NCBI GenBank assembly: GCA_016186045.1
Contig: JACPMJ010000015.1
Location: forward strand, 1-41,187
Source: Candidatus Uhrbacteria bacterium
Lineage (GTDB): Bacteria; Patescibacteriota; Patescibacteriia; JACQRZ01
Direction: 5' to 3'
DNA: 41,187 bases
Below the pieces are notes generated by a model that did no database searches, was not told the DNA's origin, and was given only the letters and a program-made list of their open reading frames with translations. Each line of letters opens with the position of its first letter. The first letter of the stretch is position 1. Shown one piece after another: positions 3,129 to 11,320 of the stretch. A program made the position numbers and the translations under genes.

Positions 3129-3203
3129 ATATGTAAAGCATACACGAGAAGCGCGTATCATGCAAATGTTGAGCGCATACTAAAAAAACATTACTTTTTA
3201 TTC

Positions 3204-3232
3204 TTTCCTTACTTCTATAAAAAGTAAGGAAA
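3204..3232. promoter_or_regulatory. Perfect inverted repeat upstream of the vapBC-like operon (possible operator)
   Basis: TTTCCTTACTT (3204-3214) / AAGTAAGGAAA (3222-3232). Confidence 0.5.
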
Positions 3233-3313
3233 TATATTTTTAAATGAATTTATTTCATTATAATTACAATGAAAAAAATAAGATACAGAAAATTATCCAC
3301 AGTTTAGCTCTTG

Positions 3314-3342
3314 ACGGATATCCTGCTATGCTGTAGCCTATG
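3314..3342 (+). promoter_or_regulatory. Possible promoter of the GC-rich transcription unit
   Basis: TTGACG - 17 nt - TAGCCT; the -35 is good, the -10 weak. Confidence 0.35.
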
Positions 3343-3380
3343 CACTATCGACGTTTCGGTTTTCAGATTTTGGATGGTGA

Positions 3381-3402
3381 CGTATGCGACGGATCGCGTA
3401 CG
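3381..3402 (+). promoter_or_regulatory. Leader hairpin of the GC-rich unit
   Basis: CGTATGCGA / TCGCGTACG, 9 bp with one wobble, CGGA loop. Confidence 0.5.
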
Positions 3403-3516
3403 CCGAACTCGACAATTCGAAACTTGACAACCTCGTTACCAAAAACATGTGTCCGTACTGAAACGCAGATGTCTCAGAACAGACACACGTACTCAACACA
3501 CAGAAAGGTACGCTCA

Positions 3517-4260
3517 ATGAGCCGTTTGAACCCTCGAGACTACGCAAGTACCACCGTGGACGGCCGCGTCTACGACGGCCGCAGTCAGGCCAATATCCCC
3601 TTCCTGGTGGAGATGTTTCAAAACTTCTCCAACACGGTCTCCAAGGCCAGTGGCCTGCGCAAGAAGCTTCGCCACGACGCGGGCTTCCTGGGCTTCCAGC
3701 GGCCCTCCGTGGACCAGACGTCCGCCGCCAAGGACGCCATCAAGGCGGCCAAGGTGGTGAAGAACGACTGGTACCAGAATCTTCCCCAGCAGACCCAGCA
3801 GGCGCTGGGCACGAACATGTCCGCTCAGGACTCGAGCAAGACCATCCTCACCATGGGCGCCAATCGCGTCCTCGGCCTGGATGCCGTCTTCGGACTCCTG
3901 GACGTGGGGAACGATGCCGCGCTCAAGGTGACGGTGATCAACACCCTCAACAGGATCACCGGCAACAAGACGCGCGTCGACTCCATCCAGGATCGGGACG
4001 TCAAGTCCATGCTGGAAAACCTCGACACGTCGGCGGCGCTCCAGATCCGGGAATACCGGCACTACAACAAACTCCAGCCCAAGCTGGATGAGCTCTGCAA
4101 GAACGTGGGGACCTCCATCGAGTCCTGCATCGACAGCAAGACGCATGGCATTCCCTCGTCCAGCCGCGCTCCCTCCGGCCATCACACCCCCTCGCACTTC
4201 GGTAGCGGCGCTGTCGCTCCCGGCGGCGCGGGTCGTCTCGCGGCCATGCCCGTCAACTAG
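3517..4260 (+). CDS. Hypothetical GC-rich protein of 247 aa (MSRLNPRDYASTTVDGRVYDGRS...RLAAMPVN)
   Basis: ATG preceded by AGAAAGG. In the 60 nt 3901-3960, 19/20 codons end in G/C (36/60 G+C), unlike the surrounding genes. No family recognised. Confidence 0.75.
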   Translation: MSRLNPRDYASTTVDGRVYDGRSQANIPFLVEMFQNFSNTVSKASGLRKKLRHDAGFLGFQRPSVDQTSAAKDAIKAAKVVKNDWYQNLPQQTQQALGTNMSAQDSSKTILTMGANRVLGLDAVFGLLDVGNDAALKVTVINTLNRITGNKTRVDSIQDRDVKSMLENLDTSAALQIREYRHYNKLQPKLDELCKNVGTSIESCIDSKTHGIPSSSRAPSGHHTPSHFGSGAVAPGGAGRLAAMPVN

Positions 4261-4398
4261 CTCACCAGAGCACAAAGACGGGACAACGCTCGCTCTCTCG
4301 AGAGAATGAGCTTCGCTTCAGGCTCGAGGCACGTCCTTGAGCCGGCGGATTTCAATGACGCCTCATCAAGGCTCATGTTCAACCTGCCATACGCTCAT

Positions 4399-4481
4399 CT
4401 GGCTTCCAGGGTAGGGATAAGGGATAAGGAGGAGAGGAAGCCAGAAGGTGTGACAGGTATTATGCGCTGATAAAAAGCGCA
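4399..4481 (+). ncRNA. Structured 3' region or candidate RNA downstream of the GC-rich ORF
   Basis: CTGGCTTCC (4399-4407) / GGAAGCCAG (4436-4444) around a G-rich GGGTAGGGATAAGGGATAAGGAGG loop, then hairpin TGCGCT-gataaaa-AGCGCA (4463-4481). Confidence 0.35.
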
Positions 4482-4554
4482 AGGGTAACGAAGTTGGTCC
4501 ATGTACGTGAGATGAGGCGAACGCGCCATTGTCCGCTACTGGATAAAAGCCAAC

Positions 4555-4597
4555 AGCCGGGTTGACCACCACAAAGGTCCCCGGCTTTACTCTTTTT
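4555..4597 (+). terminator. Rho-independent terminator of the GC-rich unit
   Basis: AGCCGGG-tt-GACC-accacaaa-GGTC-CCCGGCT followed by TTACTCTTTTT. Confidence 0.75.
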
Positions 4598-4613
4598 ACA
4601 GAATCAGCGGCTC

Positions 4614-5888
4614 CTATGAAGGATTCTGTATCGTTCCCATAAATAATATCTCTTGCGTTTGATTATCTCTAATCACAAAGAAGAAGGGACGATTGACCTC
4701 CATGTAGAATATTTGAGCGGGCTCGGCGGATGTTTCTCCAATATCAACACTCGTTACTGCGGCGGCCTCCGTCCCCTCTTCGTTTACATTAACATAGGTT
4801 TTATGTTTAACTTCGCTGATGTTTAAACTATCGCCAATACCAGTTAAATCAGCATTGTTCTGAAATGCTACTCCCATGCCTAATTGAGTCAATAATGGCA
4901 CCAATCCTTTTTCATATTCCATTTTGAATCGTGGAAGCACGATGGTACCCTCTGTCTTTTCGTATTGCTTCATCCAATCGTTCCATGTATTCGCGTCCAG
5001 ATTTTGAACAAAATTATTTAGGTTTTTTGGCAAAAATACAACCATACTCAATCGCTTGTTTTTACCATAGGACAGATTCACACTCTGGAAATCTTTTGTC
5101 TCCAAGTAAGGCATATCTCCATACTGCCGCATGAACGGATGTTTTTTGGAAACACCTTGAGACGTTGTGAATGTCCTATCTTCCGTAAGCGTCTTATCAA
5201 ATGCAGTAGTCCAGCTTCCTTTAAAATATACTGCGTTGATAAGATACATCACCGTATCACTAGGAATCGGCGGAGACACTATGCTTGGTATTTTCCCTTT
5301 GGTATTTTTACTAACCCACGCGTTTATTGTGTCCGCCGCATATGAGTTTGAAAAATCAAGAGTTGAAATTTCCGCGTTAAAATACCTCCCAACGACACTG
5401 ATAAAATCTTTCTTGAAATCTACGCCATTTCGTGCCCACACTGAATTTGCCACCGAAAGTTCTACGTTTGGATCGGGATTTTTCAAGCTATTGATAAGCC
5501 CTAAACTTTCTTGATTCACAGTTGCACTATCTAAATTTTTGAACTGCAACGTTTTCTGCATGGCGTTTTTTGTCTCCCCGTTCGCGCCGTTATAGACCAT
5601 GGACAGAGCTAAAGCAATACTGGAAGGTGAAATAAAAATATTTTTATTCCCCTCTTCTTTGGCGAGTATCTTAATGGAATGAATGCCAAACGTATTATGA
5701 GCGTACGGAATATTTTTAGGAGTCTTGGATTGAGCGGGTTGTTTTGGAATCGGAATCGGATGTGGCGCTGGCGCAGATTTTGACAATGACACTTGCCGAT
5801 TCAAAACAAAATAGCCACCCACTCCAACAATAGCGATGAGCGCGATAATAAATACTATGATGTTTGCAAATCCTTTGTGAGTATTCAT
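4614..5888 (-). CDS. Serpin (serine protease inhibitor) with N-terminal membrane anchor
   Basis: NIFISPSSIALALSMVYNGANGETKNAMQ, INAVYFKGSW, hinge VNEEGTEAAAVTSV, NRPFFFVIRDNQTQEILFMGTI; N-terminal hydrophobic segment IIVFIIALIAIVGVGGYFVL. Confidence 0.95.
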   Translation of the reverse strand: MNTHKGFANIIVFIIALIAIVGVGGYFVLNRQVSLSKSAPAPHPIPIPKQPAQSKTPKNIPYAHNTFGIHSIKILAKEEGNKNIFISPSSIALALSMVYNGANGETKNAMQKTLQFKNLDSATVNQESLGLINSLKNPDPNVELSVANSVWARNGVDFKKDFISVVGRYFNAEISTLDFSNSYAADTINAWVSKNTKGKIPSIVSPPIPSDTVMYLINAVYFKGSWTTAFDKTLTEDRTFTTSQGVSKKHPFMRQYGDMPYLETKDFQSVNLSYGKNKRLSMVVFLPKNLNNFVQNLDANTWNDWMKQYEKTEGTIVLPRFKMEYEKGLVPLLTQLGMGVAFQNNADLTGIGDSLNISEVKHKTYVNVNEEGTEAAAVTSVDIGETSAEPAQIFYMEVNRPFFFVIRDNQTQEILFMGTIQNPS

Positions 5889-5978
5889 ATTTAGTTATGT
5901 ATGAGTCAATAATTTTTAATTGTATGATTAAAAAAAAATTTCTTCCAAAAAATATAAAACCACTTGCAATTTCCGTAC

Positions 5979-6053
5979 TGGTGCCCCCGGAGGGAATCGA
6001 ACCCCCATCTACGGTTCCGAAGACCGTCGTTTTATCCATTAAACTACAAGGGC
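5979..6053 (-). tRNA. tRNA-Arg(TCG), CCA encoded
   Basis: Minus: GCCCTTGTAGTTTAATGGATAAAACGACGGTCTTCGGAACCGTAGATGGGGGTTCGATTCCCTCCGGGGGCACCA; anticodon loop CTTCGGA. Confidence 0.95.
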
Positions 6054-6126
6054 ATGTGTCTATGCGTAGTATAGCGAATAGCATACATAAAGCAACCGCC
6101 CATGAGGCGGCTGTTTTATTCTTGTC

Positions 6127-6147
6127 ATTCCCAACTTGATTGGGAAT
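6127..6147. repeat. Palindromic REP-like element
   Basis: ATTCCCAA-cttga-TTGGGAAT within TGTCATTCCCAACTTGATTGGGAATCCA; a related element is at 36407-36457. Confidence 0.5.
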
Positions 6148-6171
6148 CCAGTATTTTTTTTGACCGTCAGT

Positions 6172-7209
6172 TTATCTTTTTTTCATATCATCCAAGTACG
6201 TATGAAGCTCTTCTTCCGATATTTCACCGCGCGCATGGAGATCCGTGAGACTGCGCTCCAGCGGAATCATGCCAATCTCACTGTTTATCTGAATCAAGGC
6301 CGGTATCTGTTCTATCTTATTATCCCGAATAAGCGTGGCAATCGCAGGCGTATTGATAAGCACCTCGCGCGCCGCTACTCGCCCACCGTTTTGTGCACGA
6401 ATAAGTTTTTGAGAAATAATTCCGCGTAATGTCAGTGCGAGCTGACCGCGAATTTGATCCTGCTGTCCCTCTGGAAACATATCTATGATACGATGAATAG
6501 TCTGCGCCGCGTTGCCGGTATGGAGCGTGGAAAATACGAGATGCCCGGTCTCCGCGAGCGTCATCACGGTCGCCATGGTCTCATGGTCGCGAATTTCGCC
6601 TACCATAATCACATTGGGATCATGGCGTACCACATGTTTGAGCGCGTCTGAAAATGAGAGAAAATCTTGTCCCAGCTCCCTCTGTTTGATATATGATTTT
6701 TCTGATGGAAAGATAAACTCAATAGGATCCTCAAAGGTAATGATGTGTTCTGCTCTGTTTTTATTGATGTGATCTATCATCGCGGCAAGCGTGGTGGACT
6801 TCCCCTGCCCTGTCTGGCCGGTAATTAGCACGAGTCCGGATTTTGCTTGCGTAAAATGACCGGCATGCTCCGCGAGTCCCAGCGCATCCACGTTCGGAAT
6901 GTCTTTTTGGATTCTTCGCGCGACAAGACTGTCATTTCCTTTTTCCAAAAACATACTCACGCGAAAACGATTCTCATCATCCATCTGGCACGCGAAATCA
7001 AGCTCTTTTGTTTTTTGGAGAGCCTCTTTTTTTTGTTCATCGAGTAACGCGTATGCCAATACCTGAATATCCTCACTTGAAAGTACGGGAAATTGCTCTT
7101 GTTCGCTCAAAACACCCTGTATGCGAAATACCGGACGTTTACCCGCAATAAGATGAATATCAGAACCGTTGAGCTCGGAAAGAGTGCGAAAAATGTCGTA
7201 AATATGCAT
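6172..7209 (-). CDS. pilT: Type IV pilus retraction ATPase PilT
   Basis: Walker A GQTGQGKSTT, IITFEDPIEFIF, GEIRDHETM, HLVFSTLHTGNA; start set at MHIYDIFRTLSELNGSDIHL. Confidence 0.92.
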   Translation of the reverse strand: MHIYDIFRTLSELNGSDIHLIAGKRPVFRIQGVLSEQEQFPVLSSEDIQVLAYALLDEQKKEALQKTKELDFACQMDDENRFRVSMFLEKGNDSLVARRIQKDIPNVDALGLAEHAGHFTQAKSGLVLITGQTGQGKSTTLAAMIDHINKNRAEHIITFEDPIEFIFPSEKSYIKQRELGQDFLSFSDALKHVVRHDPNVIMVGEIRDHETMATVMTLAETGHLVFSTLHTGNAAQTIHRIIDMFPEGQQDQIRGQLALTLRGIISQKLIRAQNGGRVAAREVLINTPAIATLIRDNKIEQIPALIQINSEIGMIPLERSLTDLHARGEISEEELHTYLDDMKKR

Positions 7210-7384
7210 ACTTTTCTTTATAGTATCAATACGCCCAGTATAGCATATTTTCCCGATTTTGTCAATGGGATCACCTAAATCATATTTTCCTATGCTATGC
7301 CCCGTCAAAAGAAAAAAGTTATCAACAAAACCTCCCTATATCATACCCCCAAAGTATGTTAAAATCTTCTTGCTAATAACAATA

Positions 7385-7402
7385 CGCCTCAATATATAGG
7401 CG
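7385..7402. promoter_or_regulatory. Putative NrdR-box-like palindrome upstream of nrdA
   Basis: CGCCTCAATATATAGGCG contains CAATATATAG, matching the CWATATATWG core of NrdR boxes. Confidence 0.4.
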
Positions 7403-7426
7403 ACCCGCTTACCTATCTGTAATCCT

Positions 7427-10252
7427 ATGCCACTCGCAAAGATCAAAAAAAGAAATGGTGAAATTGTAGACTTTGATAGATCCCGCATTGAAGTAGCAAT
7501 TAAGAAAGCCTTCGACGAGATACAGGCGGCCTATGAACCAGCGCTTCTTATCTCGATAGTGGATAATGTCGTGGGAGAGCTGTCTGAAAAATTTTTTGAC
7601 AAACAACTTACCGTTGAGGATGTTCAAGATGTCGTGGAACACATGATCGTGCATAAGGGATTTTTTCGAGTCGCGCGCGCGTATATTATCTATCGCTATG
7701 AACATACCAAAATTCGCGAGAAAAAAAAGGAAGAAATAGTGGAAAAAATTGAAGAGGGTACGCTTTTCGTGACAAAAAAAAATGGATCAAAGGAACGATT
7801 TGATCTTGAAAAAATAAAAAAAACTCTTTCACGCCACACACAGGGTATCGAAAATGATATTGATAGTGAGATGATCATCAAACAATGCCAACGAGAGGTC
7901 TATGACGGCATTACGACGGAAGATGTAACCCGTACGCTGATTATGACGATGCGTTCACTTATTGAACGAGATCCCGCCTATTCAAAAATCACAGCGCGAC
8001 TTTTGCTTGCGAAAGTGTATAAAGATGTATTTGGCGCCGATACAGATTATTCTCATCTGAAAGAGGTGACCGCGCGCGTATTTATTAAACATATTGAGAG
8101 CGCGGTACACCATGGTCTTCTCGACGCGCGCATGCGTGAGTTTGATCTTGCAAAGATCGCATCATGTTTCATTCTTGAAAATGATGATTTGTTTGAGTAT
8201 ATGGGTCTTGAGATCTTAGTCTCGCGCTATCTTATGGAAGATCCGGAAACAAAAAAAACCATCGAGACGCCACAGATGTTTTGGATGCGTATCGCGATGG
8301 GAACGGCGATTGGTGAACGCACAGAAGATCGTGAACGTGTCGCCCGTGAGTTTTATGATGTTCTCTCTCACTTTTATTACACCCCCGGTGGACGGACACT
8401 CTTTGCGGCAGGGACAAAGAAAGCTCAACTTTCAAACTGCTTTTTGAATGTGGTTCCTGATTCACTTGAGGGTATTTTCAAGACACATGCGGATAACGCG
8501 CAGTATCTGAAGTGGTCTGGAGGGACGGGAACGTCATGGACTCCCGTGCGTGCGACCGGAGCGGCTATTGAGGGTACCGGTGTCAATAGCCAAGGACTCA
8601 TCCCCTTTTTGAAAATTGCGAATGACGTCAATGTCTCTATCAATAGAAGCGGAAAGCGGCGTGGCGCGGGGTGCGTCTATCTTGAGACATGGCACCTTGA
8701 TATTGAAGATTTTTTGGAACTTCGTAAAAATACCGGCGATGAACGGCGGCGAACCCATGATATCAACACCTCAAATTGGATTCCCGACCTTTTTATGAAA
8801 CGTGTCCAAAAAAATAGCACATGGACGCTCTTCAGCCCTGAAGAGGTTCCTGACCTTCATGAATTATATGGAAAAAAATTTGAGGAACGCTATGCTCAAT
8901 ATGAAAAGATGGCGGATGCAGGCACTCTGAAACTTTGGAAAAGAATTTCTGCGCTCGACCTTTGGAAAAAAATGCTCGCGATGCTTTTTGAGACGGGACA
9001 CCCGTGGATCACATGGAAAGATCCATGCAATATCCGCTCCCCGCAAGATCATGCGGGTGTTATCCATAGTTCAAACCTTTGCACGGAGATCACACTTAAT
9101 ACCGCACCAGATGAAACAGCGGTGTGTAATTTAGGATCGCTTAATTTTGCAAAATTCATCAAAGATGGAAAACTGGATAGGGAGCGTATCGAACGCGTAA
9201 CAAAGATCGCCGTGCGCATGTTGGACAATGTCATTGATATTAATTTTTATGCGACCGAAGACGCACGACGCAGTAACATGCGCCATCGGCCGGTTGGGCT
9301 TGGTATTCGAGGGTATCATGACGCACTCTATCAGCTTGGCATTGACTTTGACTCCGAACAAGCCCTTGCGTTCGCAGATGAATCTATGGAGGTCGTCGCT
9401 TTCTATACTCTCTTGGCATCCTCTCAACTCGCTAAAGAACGCGGCCCCTACTCCACCTACATAGGCTCCAAGTGGGATCGTGGCATTCTGCCCCATGATA
9501 CGATCGACCTTCTCGCGCATGAGCGCGGTGAAGAAATTCCAATATCAAGGAGCGGAACACTTGATTGGACAGTGGTGCGTGAATCCATAAAAAACTATGG
9601 AATGCGAAACTCAAATACCATGGCAATCGCTCCCACCGCAAGTACCGCAAATCTTGTAGGATGCATCCCGTGCGTTGAGCCGATTTATAAAAATATTTAT
9701 GTAAAGTCAAATAAAGAAGGAGATTTCCTCGTACTCAATACCTATCTTGTTCAGGCGCTTAAAAAAGCAGGCCTCTGGAATAACGACATCCTTAATAAGA
9801 TAAAATATTATGATGGAAGTATTCAAAAAATCACTGACATTCCATTGGACATTAAAAAAAGATTTAAAGAGGTCTTTGAGATTGATCAGAAATGGCTTAT
9901 TGACGCGGCGGCACGACGTGGAAAATGGATCGATCAGTCACAATCGCTTAATATTTTCTTTCGGAGCACATCCGGCAAAGAGCTGTCTGAGCTCTATTTC
10001 CATGCATGGACCAAAGGACTCAAAACAACCTACTACTTGCGCACTCTTGGCGCATCACAGGTAGAAAAATCCACAGTGAGCACCAAGGAATTTGGCTCGA
10101 CTCATATTCGTGAACAGATTTCAGCAAAAAAAAGTACAGAGATACAAGCTGAACACGTAGAGGTGTTCATACAGCGCCAGCCCCAGACAGATGAATTGGC
10201 ACGTGTTATGGCGGGAGAGGCGGTAGGAATCTGTGAGTCGTGCCAAGGATGA
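7427..10252 (+). CDS. nrdA: Class I ribonucleotide reductase large subunit with two ATP-cone domains
   Basis: Tandem ATP-cone-like N-termini (IKKRNGEIVDFD..., VTKKNGSKERFD...), SSNLCTEITLN, AVCNLGSLN, C-terminal CESCQG. Confidence 0.95.
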   Translation: MPLAKIKKRNGEIVDFDRSRIEVAIKKAFDEIQAAYEPALLISIVDNVVGELSEKFFDKQLTVEDVQDVVEHMIVHKGFFRVARAYIIYRYEHTKIREKKKEEIVEKIEEGTLFVTKKNGSKERFDLEKIKKTLSRHTQGIENDIDSEMIIKQCQREVYDGITTEDVTRTLIMTMRSLIERDPAYSKITARLLLAKVYKDVFGADTDYSHLKEVTARVFIKHIESAVHHGLLDARMREFDLAKIASCFILENDDLFEYMGLEILVSRYLMEDPETKKTIETPQMFWMRIAMGTAIGERTEDRERVAREFYDVLSHFYYTPGGRTLFAAGTKKAQLSNCFLNVVPDSLEGIFKTHADNAQYLKWSGGTGTSWTPVRATGAAIEGTGVNSQGLIPFLKIANDVNVSINRSGKRRGAGCVYLETWHLDIEDFLELRKNTGDERRRTHDINTSNWIPDLFMKRVQKNSTWTLFSPEEVPDLHELYGKKFEERYAQYEKMADAGTLKLWKRISALDLWKKMLAMLFETGHPWITWKDPCNIRSPQDHAGVIHSSNLCTEITLNTAPDETAVCNLGSLNFAKFIKDGKLDRERIERVTKIAVRMLDNVIDINFYATEDARRSNMRHRPVGLGIRGYHDALYQLGIDFDSEQALAFADESMEVVAFYTLLASSQLAKERGPYSTYIGSKWDRGILPHDTIDLLAHERGEEIPISRSGTLDWTVVRESIKNYGMRNSNTMAIAPTASTANLVGCIPCVEPIYKNIYVKSNKEGDFLVLNTYLVQALKKAGLWNNDILNKIKYYDGSIQKITDIPLDIKKRFKEVFEIDQKWLIDAAARRGKWIDQSQSLNIFFRSTSGKELSELYFHAWTKGLKTTYYLRTLGASQVEKSTVSTKEFGSTHIREQISAKKSTEIQAEHVEVFIQRQPQTDELARVMAGEAVGICESCQG

Positions 10253-10270
10253 AAAATATTTTTACTCATT

Positions 10271-11320
10271 ATGTTCTCACGATCTATGCCAATTACCATC
10301 GGAGCACAGCCGGTAGATATCAATAAGCGTCGCATTATTAACGGTGGGGATGCCGATGTGATGCAGCTCTATCCTATGCGCCACACGTTCGCATGGGATG
10401 CGTATAACGTGGGCAATGCAAACCATTGGCTTCCCACTGAGATATCCATGCAAAAAGATATCGAGCAATGGAAACATCCAACATTTCTTTCTCAGGATGA
10501 ACGAAAGGCGTTTGAGACGGTTCTTGGCTTTTTTACTACCGCGGACTCCATCGCGGCGAATAATGTCGTGCTCGCTCTCTATAAACATGTCACCTCCCCC
10601 GAGGTACGTATGTATCTCTTACGGCAAGGATATGAAGAGGCGAATCATACACACTCCTATCAGTACATCGTAGAGTCATTAGGCATGGATGAGTCCAAGA
10701 TTTTTAATATGTATCGGGAAATAGAGGCGATTTATAATAAAGACAATCTCGTCCTTACGCTCAATGATGGCATTTTTGATTCATATTTCAAAACAGGAAC
10801 ATTTGCGAGTGATCAAAAGTTTCTCGAGAATTGGATCGCCTTCGCGCTTATTATGGAGGGTATCTTTTTTTACAGTTCGTTCGCCGTCATGTTCGGTTTT
10901 CAGCGACAGAATAAACTTACCGGATCAGCAGAACAGATCCAATACATCATGCGTGATGAGTCCCAGCATCTGAACTTTGGCATCAACGTCATCAATAGCA
11001 TCAAAGAAGAACAGCCGGAACTTTGGACAAAAGAATTTCAGGACCATATCAGTGATCTTGTTCGCCGCGCCGTTGTGCTAGAGTATACATTCGCGACAGA
11101 GGTGTTTCCTACCGGTATCTTTGGCATGAATGCGGCAGGATTCAAGCAGTATATTGAGCACATTGCCGATCGGCGCCTTGAACGCGTAGGTCTTCCCGCG
11201 CAGTACCATGTGGAAAATCCGTTCCCATGGATGTCCGAGGCGATCGATCTCTCAAAAGAAAAGAATTTTTTTGAAACGCGCGTTACCGAATACAAAGTCG
11301 GCGGAGCTCTGGAGTGGTAA
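10271..11320 (+). CDS. nrdB: Class I ribonucleotide reductase small subunit
   Basis: TTADSIAANN, YEEANHTHSYQYI (E-x2-H and Tyr kept), IMEGIFFYSSFA, IMRDESQHL. Confidence 0.95.
   Translation: MFSRSMPITIGAQPVDINKRRIINGGDADVMQLYPMRHTFAWDAYNVGNANHWLPTEISMQKDIEQWKHPTFLSQDERKAFETVLGFFTTADSIAANNVVLALYKHVTSPEVRMYLLRQGYEEANHTHSYQYIVESLGMDESKIFNMYREIEAIYNKDNLVLTLNDGIFDSYFKTGTFASDQKFLENWIAFALIMEGIFFYSSFAVMFGFQRQNKLTGSAEQIQYIMRDESQHLNFGINVINSIKEEQPELWTKEFQDHISDLVRRAVVLEYTFATEVFPTGIFGMNAAGFKQYIEHIADRRLERVGLPAQYHVENPFPWMSEAIDLSKEKNFFETRVTEYKVGGALEW

Follow-up and report, generated by a model that had tools for sequence, protein, structure and literature searches.

Organization of the Locus

The window analyzed here is an entire 41-kb contig (C15) of a 0.93-Mb genome that is ~92% complete and has a GC content of 44.7%. 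Its small size, together with numerous relatives of roughly 1 Mb, suggests that it belongs to a CPR/Patescibacteria lineage. The ORF at 3517-4260 stands alone on the forward strand, flanked on one side by a PIN-domain/MazE-like pair and on the other by a serpin gene; the genes on both sides are encoded on the reverse strand (Table 1). The first-pass annotation described a self-contained transcription unit equipped with a promoter, a structured leader, a ribosome-binding site (RBS), structured 3' sequence and its own strong terminator. The isolated position, the RBS-like site and the terminator agree with this description, but the candidate promoter is weak: its -10 element matches the consensus at only 3/6 positions, and a consensus scan did not call the promoter. 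The terminator is a strong, bulged 10-bp hairpin followed by a T-run, according to both fold prediction and sequence; a simple terminator scan missed the hairpin because of the bulge.

Table 1. Features of the putative transcription unit around the orphan ORF.
Feature	Position	Strand	Remarks
Weak candidate promoter	3311-3339	+	TTGACG (3311-3316), 17-nt spacer, TAGCCT (3334-3339); read from the sequence
Untranslated leader	3340-3516	+	~170 nt; open in the frame of the ORF, without codon periodicity
RBS-like site	3503-3509	+	AGAAAGG, 5' of the ATG at 3517; read from the sequence
Orphan ORF	3517-4260	+	247 codons/amino acids; 26.7 kDa; pI 9.6
3' untranslated region	4261-4555	+	Several hairpins
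Intrinsic terminator	4556-4597	+	Hairpin 4556-4585: GCCGGG-TT-GACC / loop / GGTC-CCCGGC, then TTTACTCTTTTT; T-run 4586-4597

An in-frame ATG at 3340 offers an alternative start. The GC content of the leader by codon position (0.41/0.51/0.49) reveals no excess at the third position, and the true start is therefore likely to be 3517.

The supposed structure of the flanking RNA fared less well. With a fold z-score of about -1.2, the leader folds no better than is typical for control regions of the genome. Shuffled versions of the 3' region do fold less well than the region itself (z -4.3 over 340 nt), but its z-score over 220 nt is -3.2, which is also the lower quartile of this measure in 60 control 3' regions taken from the genome. 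Given this unexceptional 3' fold and the ordinary leader, we dropped the claim of a special RNA structure. No known RNA family was found with Rfam, and a DNA search with the 3' region returned only chance matches of 22-33 nt. A long hairpin in the 3' region carries a purine-rich loop, GGGTAGGGATAAGGGATAAGGAGGAGAGG (4408-4437), that may represent a G-quadruplex or a Shine-Dalgarno-like sequence.

The downstream serpin (protease inhibitor) gene at 4614-5888 is complete and encodes an N-terminal hydrophobic segment. Its 71% identical homologue in the sister genus G005 is part of a longer protein and sits in a different gene neighborhood; the serpin and PIN flanks are not syntenic in the relatives compared.

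Codon Signature and Coding Status

The composition of the ORF is extreme, as the first-pass annotation had noticed. Its GC content at codon positions 1, 2 and 3 is 0.58/0.44/0.87, and this GC3 is the highest in the genome (mean 0.448, sd 0.076, 709 ORFs); the 22 other tabulated genes of the window range from 0.37 to 0.54. Measured against its own genome, the ORF also has a codon-fit z-score of -7.8, and the tetranucleotide distance of its 1.2-kb region ranks about 7th among 2886 genome windows (z 5.4); codon usage and 4-mers alike are foreign to the genome. The overall GC content is 63% in the ORF, 47% in the leader and 51-56% in the 3' part.

The GC3 signal is a coding signal. The third codon position carries the GC excess along the whole ORF; in a per-position table built in 124-base steps, each of which shifts the frame by one base, the GC-rich column shifts along with it. 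It is very improbable that the region is a structured regulatory RNA with an incidental ORF, or that the real gene is the 253-aa antisense ORF at 3514-4275. That antisense ORF does exist and the 3' region does surpass its own shuffles, but the sense frame has a consistent GC2<GC1<GC3 periodicity that the leader lacks, its start is preceded by the RBS-like site, no Rfam match was obtained and a long ORF on the antisense strand is what a GC3-rich gene would be expected to produce.

The first-pass annotation had offered unusual codon selection as one explanation. Understood as selection for high expression, this is not supported: EF-Tu-like, uS12, uS11 and GroEL-like genes of the same genome, picked by motif, have a GC3 of only 0.38-0.50, which argues against translational selection on the ORF.

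The encoded protein ends in a low-complexity tail rich in Ser, Pro, His and Gly from about residue 210, which is probably disordered. The protein may be rich in helices, a prediction of low confidence because the AlphaFold model, computed on the single sequence without homologues, is uninformative (pLDDT 35).

Search for Relatives

The protein belongs to no recognized family, in agreement with the first-pass annotation: Pfam, PHROGs, NCBIfam, PADLOC and PDB yielded chance matches only. No homologue was detected at E <= 0.001 in whole-genome searches of 10 other genomes of the order (all of one family), 380 further genomes of the class and 379 further genomes of the phylum; no genome of the same genus surfaced in the search for relatives. 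Weaker matches in G016, G100 and G349 (E 0.004-0.02) were discarded: the one in G100 overlaps a gene that encodes a membrane protein from the other strand, while those in G016 and G349 are partial and low-scoring, one of them running through stop codons. Peptide-pattern scans, which detect close relatives only, were empty for genome contigs of 84,980 species and for IMG/VR, and tblastn found no match among phages (INPHARED) or plasmids (PLSDB). None of the collections searched contained a donor sequence for the ORF. Strong homologues in close relatives, which the first-pass annotation had named as contrary evidence, did not turn up either.

These results bear on two further explanations. A phage- or plasmid-derived remnant, i.e., a gene for a structural or anti-defense protein of a specific element, would suit a basic and, as modeled, helical protein in an accessory position adjoining a PIN/MazE-like pair, and a GC3-rich gene elsewhere in the genome (L039) matches phrog_4652. 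We nevertheless regard this origin as improbable, since PHROGs, INPHARED, PLSDB and IMG/VR gave no match and the neighbors of the ORF include no other recognized phage gene. Still less credible is a chimeric assembly or a contaminant fragment joined into the contig. Such an artifact would explain the abrupt shift of composition at 3300-3520 and the lack of homologues in relatives, but it requires two false joins 1.3 kb apart; the region has no vector, phage or plasmid match (a single 49-nt chance match was seen), and comparable genes are present elsewhere, both on further contigs of this genome and in different genomes.

GC3-Rich Stand-Alone Genes in the Same Genome

The ORF is a real orphan, yet it is no unique oddity in its genome. 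About eight further GC3-rich genes stand alone and have no confident Pfam assignment (L013, L017, L039, L053, L061/L028, L031, L060 and L014), which brings the set to about nine. Compared with other genes, GC3 outliers have a longer upstream gap (median 454 versus 88 nt) and more often a strong sigma-70 promoter: a score of at least 11/12 is reached by 6 of the 13 outliers and by 40 of 631 ordinary genes (Fisher p 1e-4), in a class that was defined post hoc and from one genome. These high-scoring promoters mostly lie 146-375 nt upstream of the gene. The promoter of the ORF at 3517-4260 stays below the score that several outliers reach.

There is no sequence link detectable by phmmer between the ORF and the other GC3-rich genes. 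A match of 83% over 47 nt to a GC3-rich gene in L013 was judged a coincidence of codon bias because the two proteins did not match in phmmer. In L039, positions 5858-11307 hold a codon-atypical gene cluster, likely a foreign island, in which one gene matches the phage family phrog_4652.

Known and Likely Retroelement-Linked Families and the Persistence of High GC3

One of the GC3-rich families leads to diversity-generating retroelements (DGRs), and a second likely does. The protein of L053 (10507-11031) has a 76% identical homologue in the sister genus G006 that adjoins a reverse transcriptase. The locus concerned (L080, G006:C41, 4271-6707) comprises this reverse transcriptase, a template repeat within 5701-5985 and a GC3-rich target gene at 6213-6707. 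Of 129 sites compared between the template repeat and the 3' end of the target gene, 25 differ, and 23 of these are template A positions; such A-specific substitutions are the mark of a DGR. The second family, that of L061, occurs in 56 of the 381 genomes of the class and is, by analogy, likely a DGR-type target. Its members in the genome of the window, L061 (1202-1846) and L020 (8951-9496), are paralogues with 75% identity, and their differences are not A-specific. When the reverse transcriptase of G006 was used as a query, the genome of the window gave no match, an empty result that proves little at ~92% completeness.

Both families show that high GC3 in such stand-alone genes is durable or repeatedly renewed. 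Only 31 of 67 fourfold sites are identical between the L053 family members of the two genera, while fourfold GC is 0.69 and 0.75. Likewise, 15 stand-alone homologues of L061 have a mean GC3 of 0.65 against a flank GC of 0.45, nine of them exceeding their flanks by >0.15; one reaches 0.66 within flanks of 29% GC. As GC3 remains high across genera despite strongly diverged synonymous sites, it cannot by itself date the acquisition of the ORF, and the "recently acquired" of the first-pass annotation does not follow. None of the papers searched joined DGRs with GC3.

A single recent horizontal transfer, by which the whole 1.3-kb unit from promoter to terminator would have been acquired all at once from a GC-rich donor without ameliorating since, has to be weighed against this background. 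The genome's top GC3, the outlying 4-mer composition, the proline codons (CCC in 9 of 10 cases and no CCG, unlike the genome) and the absence of the ORF from all 10 family members searched would agree with it. On the other hand, leader and 3' part are less extreme than the ORF itself, no donor-like sequence was found and the long-lived GC3 of comparable genes removes the implication of recency. We therefore consider such a transfer possible but rather unlikely.

Proposed Origin and Relation to Known Systems

In this study, we favor, with moderate confidence, that the ORF is a laterally circulating accessory ORFan and a member of the GC3-rich stand-alone class. The region would then be a monocistronic accessory gene with a promoter and a terminator of its own, whose product is predicted to be a soluble, basic and mostly helical ORFan with a probably disordered tail. 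The gene would join the stand-alone, Pfam-less set by its architecture and codon signature, not by sequence homology. This set may constitute laterally circulating accessory cargo from GC-rich sources, partly diversified by retroelements, and the ORF would be either a lineage-specific member or a fast-evolving relic of it. Its membership is one of resemblance only, because no similarity in sequence connects it with the other genes, its C-terminus lacks the signature of a variable region and its promoter is weaker. It may be expressed and take part in interaction with hosts, neighbors or phages.

ORFans of atypical composition are lineage-specific genes thought to be drawn from mobile gene pools, and they are often AT-rich. 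The present gene resembles them in being single, short, free of homologues and atypical in its codons, but it combines a high GC3 with a genomic GC content of 45%, and it is followed by a terminator of its own.

The other known system with which the ORF can be compared is that of the stand-alone CPR DGR targets (PMC8144416), represented in the same genome by L053 and, by resemblance, by L061 and L020. A Patescibacteria-restricted DGR clade has been described in which targets are without recognized membrane or other conserved domains (PMC8144416). The ORF shares with such targets the monocistronic organization, the high GC3, the lack of a Pfam family and the long leader, but it differs by having no recognizable C-type-lectin-like variable end, template repeat, nearby reverse transcriptase or sequence similarity. 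A repeat test did not give the result expected of a DGR target: region 3131-4660 has only weak, chance-level matches elsewhere in the genome, and no template repeat was found. The low-complexity tail and the missing Pfam match also speak against a C-terminal C-type-lectin-like fold, on which the structure model is uninformative.

A broader and doubtful extension of these observations is that Patescibacteria share a recognizable class of accessory genes that stand alone, have strong promoters and long leaders and are partly diversified by retroelements. Active maintenance would hold their third codon positions at a high GC content irrespective of that of the host, and the ORF would be a non-DGR member. 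If so, a shared selective or mutational process would operate instead of repeated recent transfer. High GC3 is commonly taken as a sign of recent transfer, whereas some stand-alone accessory genes here have been GC3-rich for long, which matters for the identification of foreign genes in reduced genomes. They also point to a reservoir of genes that are candidates for being expressed and facing the host. The protein of the ORF itself forms a singleton family.

Another GC3-rich gene was seen in the sister genus G005 (L091, 2801-3631). It is Pfam-less, has a GC3 of 0.72 and is preceded by a TTGACA-like promoter ~370 nt upstream; the leader between them contains several RBS-like sites that are strong.
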